A stretch of DNA of 64,000 nucleotides, taken from positions 1-64,000 of the forward strand of contig CANJMI010000023.1 in NCBI GenBank assembly GCA_947475525.1. The letters are read 5' to 3'. Positions 33,217-39,434 of the stretch are shown piece after piece; position 1 is the first letter of the stretch; each line of letters starts with the position of its first letter. The notes below the pieces were generated by a model. It did not search any database. It had not been told where the DNA came from and saw nothing but the letters and a program-made list of their open reading frames with translations. Made by a program: the position numbers and the translations under genes. Source of the DNA: Polyangiaceae bacterium. GTDB lineage: Bacteria; Myxococcota_A; Polyangia; Polyangiales; Polyangiaceae.

Positions 33217-33894
33217 TCAATCCAGGAGGCGCACGGCCATCGCCGTGACCATGAACTCTTGCTGCGGACCATCGACCTTCGCCGGATCCTTGCCGCCATC
33301 TTCAGCGAGGTGCTTGGCGAAGGCGGCGGAAACGGTCTTCGCGCGGAGCAAGCCTTCGACCTCGGCGTGCTTGCCGGCGATGTCCTTCGGCATAAAGAAC
33401 TGATGCTCTTTGGTGAAGATGCGCGCCTCGGTGGTGCCGTCCTGCAACGTCAACCAGCAACCGGCCTTCTGGCAGACGGCGGAGACGGTACCGCTCACGC
33501 GCACGAGCTTGCCGGAGTCGTCGCTCGTTGCCGCGCCGCATGAAGCGACTTCCTTGCCACTCGCATCCTTCGCGTCTTTGCCCGCCGCACCGTGCGCCGC
33601 ACCGCAGCTGTGCTCGTCGCCAACCTTCGGGGCGCCCGAGCCCGCGGGGGGAGCCGAATCCTTGCCGATTCGGGCGACCGCCAGCGACAGCCCCTCGCTC
33701 GCGGGGAGCGTGAACGCGGCGCCGAACTGCTTCGGCTGCGACACGGGCTTCGCCAACGAGTCAGGCGCGCCCGCGGTGCTCCCAGGCGAGGGCTCTTGCG
33801 CGGGAGGCGGCGACGGTTGCGAATTGCAGGCGACGACAAGGACCAACAGGGCGACGGTTGCGGGCCGGAGCATGGCGCGGAGGATAGCAGACAT
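33217..33894 (-). CDS. DUF4920-like lipoprotein
   Basis: About 225 residues. The N-terminus is a lipoprotein signal (VALLVLVVAC) followed by a Pro/Ser linker. The C-terminal domain carries the DUF4920 landmarks: VSGTVSAVCQKAGCWLTLQDG, RIFTKEHQFFMPKDIAGKHAEVEG. A Cys/His-bearing insert (EHSCGAAHGAAGKD, ASCGAA) precedes it. The CxxxxCW motif hints at metal or redox binding; function is not established. The ATG at 33894 is one of several close in-frame starts. Confidence 0.7.
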   Translation of the reverse strand: MSAILRAMLRPATVALLVLVVACNSQPSPPPAQEPSPGSTAGAPDSLAKPVSQPKQFGAAFTLPASEGLSLAVARIGKDSAPPAGSGAPKVGDEHSCGAAHGAAGKDAKDASGKEVASCGAATSDDSGKLVRVSGTVSAVCQKAGCWLTLQDGTTEARIFTKEHQFFMPKDIAGKHAEVEGLLRAKTVSAAFAKHLAEDGGKDPAKVDGPQQEFMVTAMAVRLLD

Positions 33895-33945
33895 CCGCAC
33901 GTTGTTGGGACCCCAGCGTCGCCGAGGAAGCGCGCGGGCGAGCGG

Positions 33946-34893
33946 TTACTTTCCGCCGCGGCTCGCCGCTATCGCCTTCACGATGGCATCGAGTTCCGTT
34001 GCCGTAGCCTCGTCGACGCTGGCCCTGTGCGCGGTGACGTGACGCGCCGTATCCGCGGATTCGACCATCGTCAGCGCCGTGCGATGCGCCGCTCGAGCGT
34101 CACCGTCGTAGCGACCATAGCTGCGCACGAGCGCGGCCGCGATGACGTCACCCGCTTCAATGCCCTCGGCTTGTCGCGAGGCCCCAAGCGCTTGCCATGC
34201 CCAGCTCGAACCGAGGTTACCGAGCGCCCGTGCGAGGCTTGCGGCGTCGTCCTTCGACGAGGCTGTGGCAAGCTCCGCTGCGAGCGCACGAGCCGCGTCA
34301 ACCGAGCGGCACTCACCGAGGCCGTCGAGCGCCGCGAGTCGTCGAGCCCCGTCGCGCAAAGCGAGCTTCAGGACGTTACGCGAACTCGAGTCACAGAGTC
34401 GCCCGATCGCCCGGCCTGCCGTGCGCACGACCGCCGCGGGCTGCGAGGACGCGAACACGGCTTGTACTGCCGCCGACGCCCGCACGTCGCGCAAGCGACC
34501 TACCTCGGTCAGCATGCCCTCGACGAGCGCCCGTCGCTCCTCATCCGACGCGCGATTGAACGGCGTCGCATCGAACACGAGCGCATCGAGCATCGGGAAG
34601 AGCGCCGCCTTGCCGAGGTGCCGGAGCTCCGGTCCGACCTGCGGGATCGGGTTGCGAAACTGACGGTAGTTTTCTGGGAGAAAACCCTTCAGCTCCCGAA
34701 CGGCCGCAAACGACTTCGGAGCCACGCGCTTCTGCTCCGCGATGGCCGCTTGAAGCTTCGTGCGCTCCGCGATCGGCAGGTCCGCCGCTCGTGCGGCGAG
34801 GCCCTCGGCCGAGGCGACGACGGAGGTGGTACCCAGGAGGGAGAAGGCGGCGCACGCGATCACCGACGACAAATTCTTACGAGCGGTCTTCAC
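33946..34893 (-). CDS. Exported helical-repeat (HEAT-like) protein coupled to the arginine deiminase gene
   Basis: GTG 34893 overlaps the stop of the deiminase gene as GTGA. The 315-residue product has a signal peptide (SVIACAAFSLLGTTSVVASA) and then repeated two-helix units of about 30-35 residues (AALFPMLDALVFD, ASAAVQAVFASSQPAAVVRTAGRAIGRLCD, RRLAALDGLGECRS, AASLARALGNLGSS) that look like HEAT/Armadillo repeats. Such folds bind proteins, so it may present or regulate a substrate of the deiminase (inference). Confidence 0.65.
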   Translation of the reverse strand: MKTARKNLSSVIACAAFSLLGTTSVVASAEGLAARAADLPIAERTKLQAAIAEQKRVAPKSFAAVRELKGFLPENYRQFRNPIPQVGPELRHLGKAALFPMLDALVFDATPFNRASDEERRALVEGMLTEVGRLRDVRASAAVQAVFASSQPAAVVRTAGRAIGRLCDSSSRNVLKLALRDGARRLAALDGLGECRSVDAARALAAELATASSKDDAASLARALGNLGSSWAWQALGASRQAEGIEAGDVIAAALVRSYGRYDGDARAAHRTALTMVESADTARHVTAHRASVDEATATELDAIVKAIAASRGGK

Positions 34894-36731
34894 TTCGACA
34901 CCCCTTCGGTCTTCAGCATCCGGTTCCACCATTGCCACTCGGGCTGTGGCGGGCCTTCCTGATTCGACCCGCAGTGCACCTCACCGTCGAGCACGTGATA
35001 AAAAGACCAGTCGTCGGCGTACGAGACATGGAGGCCTTTGCCGTCAGCGCCGAGTGCGTGTTTGTCCGTGCCGAGGGCCTCGGTAACGAACTTTTTCACG
35101 CCGTCCTCACCGTCGATCATCGGGCCGAATGGGTCGGGAACGATCGCCGTTCCATTGAATATGCGCGAATTCACGACGCCCGGCTGGTACGCGACGTTGT
35201 ACTCGTTGCCGCCGTCGGAGATCGCCTCGAAGAGCGTCGGCAGAAAGACGATGTCGTCGTCGGTGAGACCGACCTCGAGCTTCATCTTGGCCACCACCGG
35301 ATCGATGTTCCCTTGCGCCTTTTGGCTCGCGGCCATCAAATCGGTGTCCGCGAGCGCATCGTCGATCGAGATCGTCGCGGCTTTCCCGTCGGACCATTTC
35401 TTGCCGACGAACATCTCGACGGCTCCGTGGCCCTTCTTCTGCCACTCTTCCAGCATCGAGCGACCGAGCTTCGGCGAAGCGACGAGCAGCTTCCATCCGC
35501 GCGGAGTCGCGGCCGGCGCGTAACTGAAGAACTCATCGACGTGCCCGACGTAGAGCCAATCGGTCTTCACCGTGATCGTCGGTGCCTGGGCCTCCTGCGC
35601 GTTGTAGAAGGCGTCCGTCTCGGGCAGCACGCCGCTGCCGTGAATGATGCGTCCGTACGGGAACGATTGATCGCCATTCGTGTAAGGCGGCAGCAAATCA
35701 TGGTTCCCGTGCGAGTCGAACGACGAGCCGGAGAAGGCCTTCTTGTAGACGACGAAGTAGCCCGAGTCTTGGTAGAGGTGGCTCTTCGCGAGCCAATTGA
35801 CCGGCAACGCCTTGTCACTGTCGCTACGACCCCAAGGCCGCGGCATCGCGATGCGCATACCGGCGACCTGCCCGTCGGACCAAGGCACCGAGGCGACGCC
35901 GGTCTGGAAGAAGTCCTCGACCCATTGGTCGCCTGGCCAATTCTTGATCTGCCAGTAGGAAACCGGACCGTCTTTAGCGTTCGCTTCCGTGATCGCAGCG
36001 TCGAGCCCGGCGACGAACACCTTCGAGTCGGCGGCGGAAAAGACGGTATCGATGCGAGGCGTCGAGTTGCCGAACATCAGCCAGGGCGCGACCCGCACCC
36101 GAGCGAGGTCGTGGCCATCCGGACTCGTCGCCGTGACGATCGGCTTGTCACCGACGCTCACCGTGTAGTCGAGCTGCACGAAGCCGCTCCATGTCCCCGC
36201 CTCGGGAAGACCGACAAGCGTCTTGCCCTCGATGCCGAGCTCGATGCCCTTCTTGACCTGCTCTTCGGTCAAGGTCAGCACCGTGGTGGTCGCGTCGAGG
36301 ACCTTCGTCCACGTCATCCCGTCGTGGCGGAACACGCGAACGTAAGGAGCGGCAGCGGGATCGATCGAAAATACGCCGGTCGCGCCTGCGGGTGCGCCCG
36401 CGAATCCGCGAAGGATGATGCGTCCGAGATCGTAGGCATCCGTCGTGTCGCCGTTGACGACCTCGTCCTCGAAATCACGCTTCTTGTCGAGGTCGTCGTC
36501 ATCGAGGTTGGCGAGGAACGCCGCCCCTTGAACTTTGTCCCACAAGGTTTTGTCGACGTTGTCATCCAGGTCGTTGATGAAGCCGTCGCGGTTCGCGTCG
36601 ACGAGGATGCTGACCGACCGCAACTCGGGCGGCTGTCCGGTGCCCGCCGAGCCGGTTTCGTCACCCGTGCCGCAGCCAACAAGCCCGGCGGAAACACCGC
36701 CAAGGAGCAAAGCCATTCGCGCAATATTCAC
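34890..36731 (-). CDS. Secreted protein-arginine deiminase (PAD) homologue, lipoprotein
   Basis: GTG 36731 is set by AGGAG 5 nt upstream; it gives 613 residues, close to the 663 of animal PADs. The N-terminus is a lipoprotein signal (ALLLGGVSAGLVGCG). A Ca-type middle domain follows (ILVDANRDGFINDLDDNVDK). The catalytic domain carries every active-site landmark of PADs: Asp273 in DQWVEDFF, His397 and Asp399 in VGHVDEFFSY, and Cys587 in GEVHCGSN, plus FPYGRIIHG, FGPMIDGEDG and WQWWNRM near the end. It should convert peptidyl-arginine to citrulline outside the cytoplasm, probably Ca-dependent. Divergent from argH. Confidence 0.88.
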   Translation of the reverse strand: MNIARMALLLGGVSAGLVGCGTGDETGSAGTGQPPELRSVSILVDANRDGFINDLDDNVDKTLWDKVQGAAFLANLDDDDLDKKRDFEDEVVNGDTTDAYDLGRIILRGFAGAPAGATGVFSIDPAAAPYVRVFRHDGMTWTKVLDATTTVLTLTEEQVKKGIELGIEGKTLVGLPEAGTWSGFVQLDYTVSVGDKPIVTATSPDGHDLARVRVAPWLMFGNSTPRIDTVFSAADSKVFVAGLDAAITEANAKDGPVSYWQIKNWPGDQWVEDFFQTGVASVPWSDGQVAGMRIAMPRPWGRSDSDKALPVNWLAKSHLYQDSGYFVVYKKAFSGSSFDSHGNHDLLPPYTNGDQSFPYGRIIHGSGVLPETDAFYNAQEAQAPTITVKTDWLYVGHVDEFFSYAPAATPRGWKLLVASPKLGRSMLEEWQKKGHGAVEMFVGKKWSDGKAATISIDDALADTDLMAASQKAQGNIDPVVAKMKLEVGLTDDDIVFLPTLFEAISDGGNEYNVAYQPGVVNSRIFNGTAIVPDPFGPMIDGEDGVKKFVTEALGTDKHALGADGKGLHVSYADDWSFYHVLDGEVHCGSNQEGPPQPEWQWWNRMLKTEGVSK

Positions 36732-36919
36732 GATTTCTCCTGGGAAAGACCCCGGAACACGCACTCTCGACGAGGCGCGCGGACCCTGAGGCTCAACGCG
36801 AATCGTACCCCAAGTGGCTCGCATCTCCGGGATGTTTCGCTCCCACTGTTTCTTTCGGTTCCCGCCGCACGCGGACTCACCCGGACGGCAATGCGCGCGC
36901 TTGGTGTAGAGTCCCGCGC

Positions 36920-38212
36920 ATGTCGGCAAAACTGTGGGACAAAGGCGGCGTAAGCGACACCGAGATGATGCGCTACACGGCGCGCGACGACTGGCAACTC
37001 GACCAACGCCTCTTGCCTTTCGACCTCCGTGCGACGCGTGCGCACGTGCGTGGACTCGCCCGGATCGGCCTTGTGAACGCGGACGAACTCGCGCGACTCG
37101 AAGCTGGCCTCGACGAGCTGGACGCGCGTTGTGCGGTTGGAGAGTTCCGCGTCACCCCGGCAGACGAGGACTGCCACTCCGCCATCGAGACGGCGCTGGT
37201 GGCGACGCTCGGTGAAGCCGGCAAGAAGGTTCACACAGGGCGCAGTCGCAACGACCAGGTGCTCGTCGCTCTCCGCCTCTACGAGAAGCATGCGCTCGCG
37301 ACGCTCGCCGAGGCGACGACGACCGGGGCTCTCGCTCTTCTCGAGCTTGCCGCGAGCGAAGCTATGACGCCGATGCCGGGCTACACGCACCTGCAGAGGG
37401 CCGTGCCTTCGTCCATCGGACTGTGGGCCGCGGGGATCGCCGAGTCCCTCGCGGATGCGCTCGACGCCATCCATGCCGCGAGCGCGCAATGCGACCGCTG
37501 TCCCCTCGGCACAGCCGCGGGCTATGGCGTGAACATCGCCCTCGACCGCGATGGCGTCGCCGCGGAGCTCGGCTTCGCCAGTATTTGTGTGAACCCCGTC
37601 GCAGCGCAGGCCTCGCGCGGTTCGGTCGAAGTCGCGGTCCTGACGGCAGCCTGGCAAGCGATGACCGCGATCCGCCGGTTCGCGTGGGATCTGTCTCTCT
37701 TTACGACGGCCGAGTTCGCGTTCGTCAAGCTCGACGAGGCGTTGACCACCGGCTCATCGATCATGCCCAACAAGCGAAACCCGGACGTAGTCGAGCTGAT
37801 GCGCGCGGCGTGCGGCGTGCTCCAAGGGGCGATAGCCGAGCTGATGGGAATGCTGTCTTTACCGAGCGGCTACCAGCGTGACCTTCAGCTCACGAAGGCG
37901 CCGCTCTTTCGTGGGCTGGACGAAGCGCTCGCCACGACGCGAATGCTGCCGCGCGTTGTCGCGGGGATGACCTTCGACCGAGAACGCATGCGCCGCGCGC
38001 TGACGCCGGACTGCTTCGCGACCGACCGCGCGGTGGAGCTCGCCCTCGCTGGCGTGCCATTCCGAGACGCCTACCGGCAAGTCGCCAAGGAGATCGCCTC
38101 GCTTGCCGAAGGCGATGCGGATCGAAGCTTGGCGGCGCGCACGAGTCCTGGGGCGTGCGGCGACCTACGCCTCGGCGACATCCGAGCACGCTTTACGGCG
38201 TCCGCCAGCTGA
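36920..38212 (+). CDS. argH: Argininosuccinate lyase
   Basis: The 430-residue protein has the fumarase/ASL superfamily signature GSSIMPNKRNPD, the HTGRSRNDQV loop and GYTHLQRAVP with the catalytic His region. It releases arginine and fumarate from argininosuccinate in arginine synthesis. It is slightly shorter than the usual 455-470 residues, mostly at the C-terminus. ATG 36920 is the start; the upstream region is shared with the divergent deiminase gene. Confidence 0.93.
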   Translation: MSAKLWDKGGVSDTEMMRYTARDDWQLDQRLLPFDLRATRAHVRGLARIGLVNADELARLEAGLDELDARCAVGEFRVTPADEDCHSAIETALVATLGEAGKKVHTGRSRNDQVLVALRLYEKHALATLAEATTTGALALLELAASEAMTPMPGYTHLQRAVPSSIGLWAAGIAESLADALDAIHAASAQCDRCPLGTAAGYGVNIALDRDGVAAELGFASICVNPVAAQASRGSVEVAVLTAAWQAMTAIRRFAWDLSLFTTAEFAFVKLDEALTTGSSIMPNKRNPDVVELMRAACGVLQGAIAELMGMLSLPSGYQRDLQLTKAPLFRGLDEALATTRMLPRVVAGMTFDRERMRRALTPDCFATDRAVELALAGVPFRDAYRQVAKEIASLAEGDADRSLAARTSPGACGDLRLGDIRARFTASAS

Positions 38213-38258
38213 GGCATGCAGGCTCGCCCTGCAAGTGCGGGGGGAAGGACAAATTGCG

Positions 38259-39434
38259 ATGATTCACTGGAAAAAAGCCTCGGCTCCGCTGCTTCTTGTG
38301 GCACTCGTGTCACCGGCGCTACTCAACTGCGACGCTCTCAACAAGGTCGCGAGCGCCGCCGGTGCGGGCTGCCCGGCGCTGACGGCACTCGACACCGGAG
38401 ACTTTTCGAACGTCCACTTGCAGGGCGACGCGAAAGGCGAACTCAAAGGCTTCCTCGAAGCCGTCTACGACGCAAAGCAACTCTCGGTCGAGACCGAGGC
38501 GAGCCTGATCGAGGCGTGCGGCGAACTTGGAAAATCACTCGGTGTCGACGAGACGGCGCTGAAGGCAGTCCCCGCTGACGGTGACGGCGCGAAGAAGGTG
38601 TGCGGCACCGTCTCCGAGAAGATAAAATCGATGATCAATGCCGCGGGCGACGCGAAGCTCGTGGTCACCATCATCGAGCCGAAGTGCAACATCGACATCG
38701 ACCAGATGCTTGGCTGCTACGAGAAGTGTGGCGTGCCTGTCGATCCCGGCGCGCTCGAAGCGAGCTGCGAAGGCGGCGAGATAAGCGGCCAGTGCGAAGC
38801 GGAGTGCAAGGGCACCTGTAGCGTCGAAGCCGCGGCTTCGTGCAGCGGCGAATGCGACGGGAACTGCACTGGCAACTGCGACGGCAAGCCGCTGAAGGAT
38901 GGCGGGATCTGCACGGGCAAGTGCGATGGCAAATGCGATGCGGCGTGCACGGCGACGGCCAAGGGCAAGTGCGCGGGCACCTGCTCGGGCGGCTGCAGCG
39001 CCAAGGTGACGGCGCCGCAATGCAGCGGCACGTTCAAGCCACCGTCCGTCGATCTCAGCTGCCAGATCGGCTGTTCGAGCCAGGCCTACAAGATGCTGAA
39101 GTGCAAGCCGCCGCGCGTGAAGATCACCGCGGAGAGCAAGGTAAAGACCGACCTCGGCAAGCTTGTGAAGGCCCTCGAGGCCTCACTTCCGAAGATCATC
39201 AACATCGAGCTCGGCCTCGGCAAGCGCGCCCTCGAACGTGCGACGGCCCTCGTCGCGTACTCCGCGAAGATGCCAGAACTCGTGACGGCCGGCGGCACCC
39301 AGGGCGCAATGTGCGCGGCGAACGGAGCGGAGGTCAGCAAGAAGGCCCTCGCGGCCATCAAGGCGAGCGTCAGCGTCAGCGTCAGTGTCAAGGTGAGCGC
39401 GAGCGCATCGGGCTCGGCGAAGACCGACGGCTGA
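38259..39434 (+). CDS. Cys-rich lipoprotein with CxGxC repeats
   Basis: About 391 residues: lipoprotein signal (LLLVALVSPALLNC), a helical N-terminal domain (to about residue 150), then a Cys-rich block of about 110 residues with repeated C-x-G/A-x-C units (CSGECDGNCTGNCDG, CTGKCDGKCDAAC, CAGTCSGGCS), a second helical domain, and a Ser/Val/Ala-rich tail (SVSVSVKVSASASGSA). The block probably forms a disulfide ladder or binds metal. AAGGA lies about 10 nt before the start. It follows argH by 46 nt and is closed by a strong terminator. No family is recognised. Confidence 0.75.
   Translation: MIHWKKASAPLLLVALVSPALLNCDALNKVASAAGAGCPALTALDTGDFSNVHLQGDAKGELKGFLEAVYDAKQLSVETEASLIEACGELGKSLGVDETALKAVPADGDGAKKVCGTVSEKIKSMINAAGDAKLVVTIIEPKCNIDIDQMLGCYEKCGVPVDPGALEASCEGGEISGQCEAECKGTCSVEAAASCSGECDGNCTGNCDGKPLKDGGICTGKCDGKCDAACTATAKGKCAGTCSGGCSAKVTAPQCSGTFKPPSVDLSCQIGCSSQAYKMLKCKPPRVKITAESKVKTDLGKLVKALEASLPKIINIELGLGKRALERATALVAYSAKMPELVTAGGTQGAMCAANGAEVSKKALAAIKASVSVSVSVKVSASASGSAKTDG

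Follow-up and report, generated by a model that had tools for sequence, protein, structure and literature searches.

To our knowledge, citrullination has been studied almost only in animals and Porphyromonas. The locus described here lies in a stretch of 64,000 nucleotides, hereafter the window, from a Polyangiaceae bacterium (assembly GCA_947475525.1, contig CANJMI010000023.1). It raises the question of what an apparently animal-type protein-arginine deiminase (PAD) does in a soil-type bacterium, where it would act and with which other protein. Both the PAD family and its occurrence in bacteria are already known (Cummings et al., 2021, PMC8826395, main text).

The PAD gene and its product

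A first-pass annotation of the window had assigned to this locus a bacterial PAD with a complete catalytic set, exported as a lipoprotein. The open reading frame is present as described, on the minus strand from a GTG at 36731 to a TGA at 34892-34890, and is the one PAD copy in its genome. The features are as follows.

34890..36731, minus strand: PAD gene, 613 amino acids, GTG start, TGA stop included (open reading frame and Pfam)
36736..36741, minus strand: AGGAGA, Shine-Dalgarno-like stretch preceding the PAD GTG (read from the sequence)
36672..36731, minus strand: putative signal sequence, ending at the lipobox LVGC with Cys20 (home-made lipobox test)
36222..36614, minus strand: PAD_M domain (residues 40-170), Ca3-5 ligands conserved (Pfam and alignment)
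34923..36110, minus strand: PAD catalytic domain, residues 208-603 (Pfam)
35913..35915, minus strand: catalytic Asp273, aligned with PAD2 D351
35541..35543, minus strand: catalytic His397, aligned with PAD2 H471
35535..35537, minus strand: catalytic Asp399, aligned with PAD2 D473
34971..34973, minus strand: catalytic Cys587, aligned with PAD2 C647

A plus-strand open frame across 34890-36731 is unsupported, the PAD being encoded on the minus strand.

By sequence and predicted fold the protein is a member of the PAD family. The profile check proposed in the annotation gives PAD (PF03068) at 244.7 bits (E 2.2e-72, cut-off 25), and PAD_M (PF08527) follows at 28.2 bits (E 1.7e-6, cut-off 24.8). 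No other Pfam family matches at E ≤ 1, and a better match to another guanidino-modifying family, an alternative raised by the annotation, does not appear at that threshold. PAD_N likewise has no Pfam match at E ≤ 1, so that the domain make-up is PAD_M plus PAD_C alone. The best match among PDB sequences is human PAD2 (HMMER, E about 1e-44). A search of NCBIfam yields a chance match alone (E 0.059), and PHROGs contains no match for the PAD or for the partner protein described below.

The four residues named in the annotation are all in place in the HMMER alignment with human PAD2, and the tetrad is complete in 16 of 16 rows of the phylogenetic group to which the protein belongs (group I, below). 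An AlphaFold2 model built on 71 aligned sequences (pLDDT 90.5, pTM 0.88) has human PAD4 as its top Foldseek match (8r8u, E 8e-49). With VIA-align, model residues 37-606 superpose on residues 112-663 of inhibitor-bound PAD4 (2dw5; Z 49.3, 1.8 Å, 510 residues), which bears out the true PAD fold that had been claimed. Substrate-bound PAD4 is overlaid over these model residues as well, and a model in which the four residues fail to cluster, the other alternative raised by the annotation, did not emerge from this comparison. The superposition begins at PAD4 residue 112, in keeping with the missing PAD_N. Among PAD3 entries, the calcium-bound 7dan_C fits better (Z 47.4, 1.9 Å) than the inactive 7d8n_A (Z 42.5, 5.2 Å). 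From alignment and model together, the protein is predicted to have citrullinating activity.

Distribution and phylogeny of bacterial PADs

Of 377 genomes sampled from the phylum, which named relatives identify as Myxococcota, 94 carry PF03068 (65 of the 235 good ones), with up to four matches per genome; it is absent from 14 control genomes. From 125 PF03068 match rows, 95 loci were taken, which gave 98 PAD open reading frames, the window included. PADs are counted in 295 bacterial species, and in 69 of 16,196 proteobacterial species, by Cummings et al. (2021, PMC8826395), who also show a cyanobacterial enzyme to be active. The annotation's view that bacterial examples of the true fold are few is contradicted by these counts.

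A scan of GTDB contigs detects at least 522 relatives. The best 80 of these are nearly all from Myxococcales, Polyangiaceae, Myxococcaceae, Deltaproteobacteria and the like, with one from Planctomycetota. Among the matches listed, the closest named relative is in L128, a Polyangiaceae metagenome-assembled genome, whose PAD is 81% identical over residues 320-613. Cultured carriers include Minicystis rosea, Myxococcus dinghuensis, M. qinghaiensis and Polyangium fumosum. Among viral contigs, 19 pattern matches came up in a scan, none of them a relative.

In a quick tree of 101 PAD rows, with SH-aLRT support only and L207 left out, the window protein is placed in group I (16 rows, support 100) beside L066. 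Two Streptomyces/Embleya rows are placed near group II, and L118 and L124 are on long branches. Several variants of the family were encountered. Group II PADs in L070, L074, L100, L113 and L121 have an insert in the catalytic domain, which accounts for their split PAD profile matches. L117 and L118 encode PAD-family proteins with changed catalytic residues and have no partner gene. In L124 (5174-8725, minus strand) the PAD is fused to a C-terminal ubiquitin carboxyl-terminal hydrolase domain (PF00443, E 3e-19), an arrangement unusual in bacteria.

Calcium sites

The ligand lists used here are those of the PAD2/PAD4 literature; they are partly backed by Cummings et al. and by PDB titles of PAD2 mutants (D123N, D169A, D177A, Q350A, E354A). 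With these lists, all Ca3-5 ligand positions are retained in the middle domain: N75, D77, D79, D86, D89, D98, D101 and E168 of the window protein align with N154, D156, E158, D166, D169, D177, D180 and E253. Together with the PAD_M match, this agrees with the calcium-type middle domain that the annotation had proposed.

The C-terminal domain is different. The Ca1 positions read E272, Q276, H341, H344 and D345 in place of the Q, E, F, L and E of PAD2; within group I, Q276 and H344 are found in 16/16 rows, H341 and D345 in 14/16 each and E272 in 8/16. The Ca2 positions read F274, P297, R298 and S303, so that this site is absent, as it is throughout groups I and II, whereas group III retains the Ca2 ligands (E352 in 39/41, D370 in 37/41, S371 in 36/41). 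Since Ca1 is rewritten and Ca2 absent in group I, calcium control of the C-terminal domain, as judged from the alignment, probably differs there. The switch residue D389 is replaced by Gly in two-domain actinobacterial and fungal PADIs, according to the main text of Cummings et al. (2021, PMC8826395). In contrast to this type, the window protein has Asp322 at the position, as Asp is found in 16/16 group I rows, in a column that is perhaps misaligned because both Streptomyces/Embleya (actinobacterial) rows also show Asp there.

Predicted export and lipid anchor

The amino-terminal segment of the PAD ends in GLVGC, with the lipobox cysteine at position 20. By a simple home-made lipobox test, with neighbouring open reading frames of at least 250 amino acids as controls, 84 of the 98 PADs of the phylum pass, compared with 119 of 660 neighbours. 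In a named set, which overlaps the first in some contigs, 71 of 80 PADs pass. These lipobox-like termini favour the lipoprotein assignment of the annotation and suggest that the window PAD may be lipid-anchored and located at the outer membrane. From there it might modify proteins of the surface, the matrix or prey, as the annotation proposed. The PADs of two Streptomycetaceae plasmids (L208, L209) also start with signal-like segments, as judged by eye.

An overlapping gene for a HEAT-repeat protein

Directly downstream of the PAD gene is a second minus-strand gene, which the annotation did not mention.

33946..34893, minus strand: partner gene, encoding a putative exported HEAT-solenoid protein of 315 amino acids (partner profile, 304 bits)
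34890..34893, minus strand: GTGA, where the partner start overlaps the PAD stop by 4 nt (read from the sequence)
34654..34656, minus strand: near-invariant Arg80 of the partner, within the loop 77-86 (alignment and DSSP)

The gene begins with a GTG at 34893, and the product has a hydrophobic N-terminus, as do all 77 partner proteins inspected by eye. A plus-strand open reading frame at 33592-34962 outscored the partner on codon bias; it was rejected, as the match of the partner profile, with about 300 bits, is on the minus strand.

Two profiles, A2 and A3, were built from genes downstream of PADs. They are related (hhalign 96.7%, E 3e-10), and Pfam HEAT_2 matches 38/40 of the A2 members and 32/32 of the A3 members; the window's own partner has no HEAT_2 match at E ≤ 0.01. 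Its AlphaFold2 model (pLDDT 93.7) is an alpha solenoid, with alphaRep HEAT designs as the closest structures (VIA-align, 7z0g_C, Z 15.8, 5.2 Å, 212 residues). HEAT_2/alphaRep-type solenoids thus represent the partner's fold, a generic repeat match that says nothing on function.

The most conserved partner position after the start is Arg80, found in 38/40 sequences of A2 and 71/72 of A5. DSSP places it in a loop of the model. It is aligned by hhalign with Arg82 of A3, which is present in 32/32, and the sequence at the arginine is often R-G or R-A-G. In Minicystis rosea the partner beside an intact PAD has Gln at this site.

Association of the two genes

The PAD-partner gene pair is conserved far beyond chance. 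A member of the partner family is directly downstream of 88 of the 98 PAD open reading frames, the window included, and in 63 of these 88 pairs the overlap of start with stop measures exactly 4 nt. Among the ten others, L038, L065 and L075 are placed at the ends of contigs, the partner is directly upstream in L044 and L045, and the frame at 8077-9666 of L099 is the leading member of a tandem PAD pair, with the partner behind the second. In L117, L118, L122 and L124 the partner is absent; L122 and L124 keep the catalytic tetrad. A second, overlapping PAD set gives a similar count: the partner is downstream in 75 of 81 cases, upstream in three, cut off by contig ends in two and lacking in L164. 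The tandem pair of PAD genes in L099 (6306-9666, minus strand) is followed by a single HEAT partner gene. Two candidates for a natural fusion of PAD and partner were discarded, as L124 represents the hydrolase fusion described above and L063 merely has an open frame upstream of its start.

The association was also examined from the side of the partner. With A2, five candidates were scored in each of the 377 genomes, and E ≤ 1e-10 left 90 places. At 84 bits or more there are 66 matches: 62 right behind a PAD, two right before one, and two fragments from genomes in which contig ends truncate the PAD as well. The remaining 24 matches score low (41.6 to 56.2 bits) and are pieces of larger HEAT proteins, found also in PAD-less genomes. 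A3 at E ≤ 1e-25 gives 52 places, 37 of them behind a PAD, two at contig ends, three elsewhere in PAD-bearing genomes and ten in one genus in which neither PF03068 nor profile A1 detects a PAD. As 64 of the 66 strong A2 matches adjoin a PAD, the window's partner subfamily is PAD-bound in this sample, and A3 is mostly so. Subfamilies also follow the PAD groups: groups I and II are paired with A2 (16 and 35 cases) and group III with A3 (37), with ten unpaired and no cross-match.

The A3-type HEAT genes of the PAD-less genus include L210-L216 and L222, several of which are near efflux-pump-like genes. The Arg80-type arginine is kept in all eight of these PAD-less orphans that were read, out of ten. 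Of other orphans, L217 keeps the arginine and L218 and L219 do not. As PAD-less orphans retain it, the arginine is not tied to PAD. Conversely, no partner is found within about 5 kb of the Streptomyces/Embleya PADs on three plasmids, and therefore a PAD can do without one.

Divergently oriented from the PAD gene is a further neighbour.

36920..38212, plus strand: Lyase_1 family gene, argininosuccinate-lyase-like (argH), divergent neighbour of PAD (association tentative)

A similar gene, 66-71% identical, adjoins the PAD in divergent orientation in L066/L127, L102/L137 and L138, and one of 34% identity in L093, of another PAD group. Beside argH in the window (38103-39434, plus strand) is a gene for a protein with a dense Cys-rich stretch of CxGxC repeats.

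Proposed function and alternatives

As an overall interpretation, the annotation stands with respect to the true-fold PAD, the tetrad, the calcium-type middle domain and the lipoprotein signal, but not with respect to rarity; it was incomplete on the C-domain calcium sites, the absence of PAD_N and the overlapping partner gene.

The reading that we consider likely is an exported, lipid-anchored PAD of the calcium type whose co-translated, exported HEAT partner binds it and controls or directs it. The two-domain enzyme (PAD_M plus PAD_C) would be exported via Sec and anchored at Cys20, and would form one functional unit with the solenoid, translated from the adjoining gene. Outside the cytoplasm, the solenoid may bind the deiminase physically and may act on it either as a regulator or by directing it. 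In the most speculative step, the conserved loop arginine might enter the PAD active site as a brake or as a first substrate; the near-invariance of the arginine speaks for such docking, and its retention in PAD-less relatives speaks against it. The full version, an extracytoplasmic citrullination system in which a co-evolving solenoid offers this arginine to the active site of a lipid-anchored PAD as a built-in brake or first substrate, is tentative and, taken as a whole, rather doubtful. In favour of a PAD-HEAT unit, both tetrad-altered PADs, L117 and L118, are without a partner. Against it are, among the 52 A3-type matches, the ten in the genus without a detected PAD and the three away from the PAD in PAD-bearing genomes, the intact tetrads of the partnerless L122 and L124, and the Gln of M. 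rosea.

Lipoprotein toxins with immunity proteins occur in myxobacteria (SitA/SitI), and on this precedent the PAD could serve to attack competitors or prey, with the HEAT protein as its periplasmic immunity protein. The order of an enzyme gene followed by an overlapping gene for a small exported protein suits such a system, and orphan A3-type genes in PAD-less genomes would fit orphan immunity. Both proteins, however, are conserved over many families rather than hypervariable (relative to the window, L128 shows 81% identity in the PAD stretch and 65% in the partner), and we regard this explanation as unlikely. We hold much the same opinion of the HEAT protein as a dedicated substrate, whose loop arginine is citrullinated by the PAD with a change in what the solenoid binds. 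PADs tend to prefer glycine after arginine, and the nearly invariant Arg80/Arg82 has a loop position and, often, an R-G or R-A-G context, but the arginine persists where there is no PAD and is Gln in Minicystis rosea.

The remaining two alternatives appear highly improbable. Arginine scavenging, in which the PAD acts on peptides and the citrulline is recycled via the adjoining argininosuccinate lyase, is suggested by the divergent argH-like genes. That neighbour, however, turns up at only a few of the loci in a search of 175, many of which end within 5-10 kb; its adjacency in the window's subclade may reflect simple inheritance of gene order, and scavenging leaves the HEAT partner unexplained. 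A non-enzymatic scaffold comparable to the inactive animal PAD6 would accord with the rewritten Ca1 and absent Ca2 of group I, but is opposed by the complete tetrad in every row of that group and by the better fit of the model to ligand-bound PAD4 than to PAD6 (Z 49.3 versus 42.5).

Relation to known systems and significance

With the animal PADs (PADI; human PAD2 and PAD4) the window protein shares the PAD_M plus PAD_C fold, the tetrad, the Ca3-5 ligands and the switch Asp. It differs in having no PAD_N, a lipobox-bearing, putatively exported form, a rewritten Ca1, no Ca2 and a HEAT partner gene. Porphyromonas PPAD is an exported bacterial citrullinating enzyme of a different family, and no such Pfam match is found in the window PAD at E ≤ 1. 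Actinobacterial and fungal PADIs have two domains, as in the window, but the window protein is without the histidine linker motif, and its HEAT partner has no equivalent near the three plasmid genes. The three-domain PADIs of cyanobacteria are likewise bacterial and of the true PAD fold; compared by description, they have a degenerate PAD_N and Ca2 site, and the window protein has neither (Cummings et al., 2021, PMC8826395, main text). Neither "myxococc" nor "signal peptide" is found as a string in that main text, and a search of open-licence papers found none on myxobacterial PADs or on a PAD-HEAT pair.

The findings point to the exported PAD-HEAT pair as a little-studied two-part system that modifies proteins outside the cell. 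Within one bacterial phylum, an animal-type PAD is encoded by a quarter of the genomes sampled; it is apparently exported, and the same partner family adjoins it in nearly all cases. The HEAT partner gives direct access to the question of how PADs are regulated or directed, and a naturally occurring protein that regulates a PAD, if real, would presumably interest researchers on PAD inhibitors. Animal PADs require more calcium than cells normally offer. If export were the ancestral state of bacterial PADs and they worked where calcium is plentiful, this would help to explain why the animal enzymes need calcium above usual cell levels.
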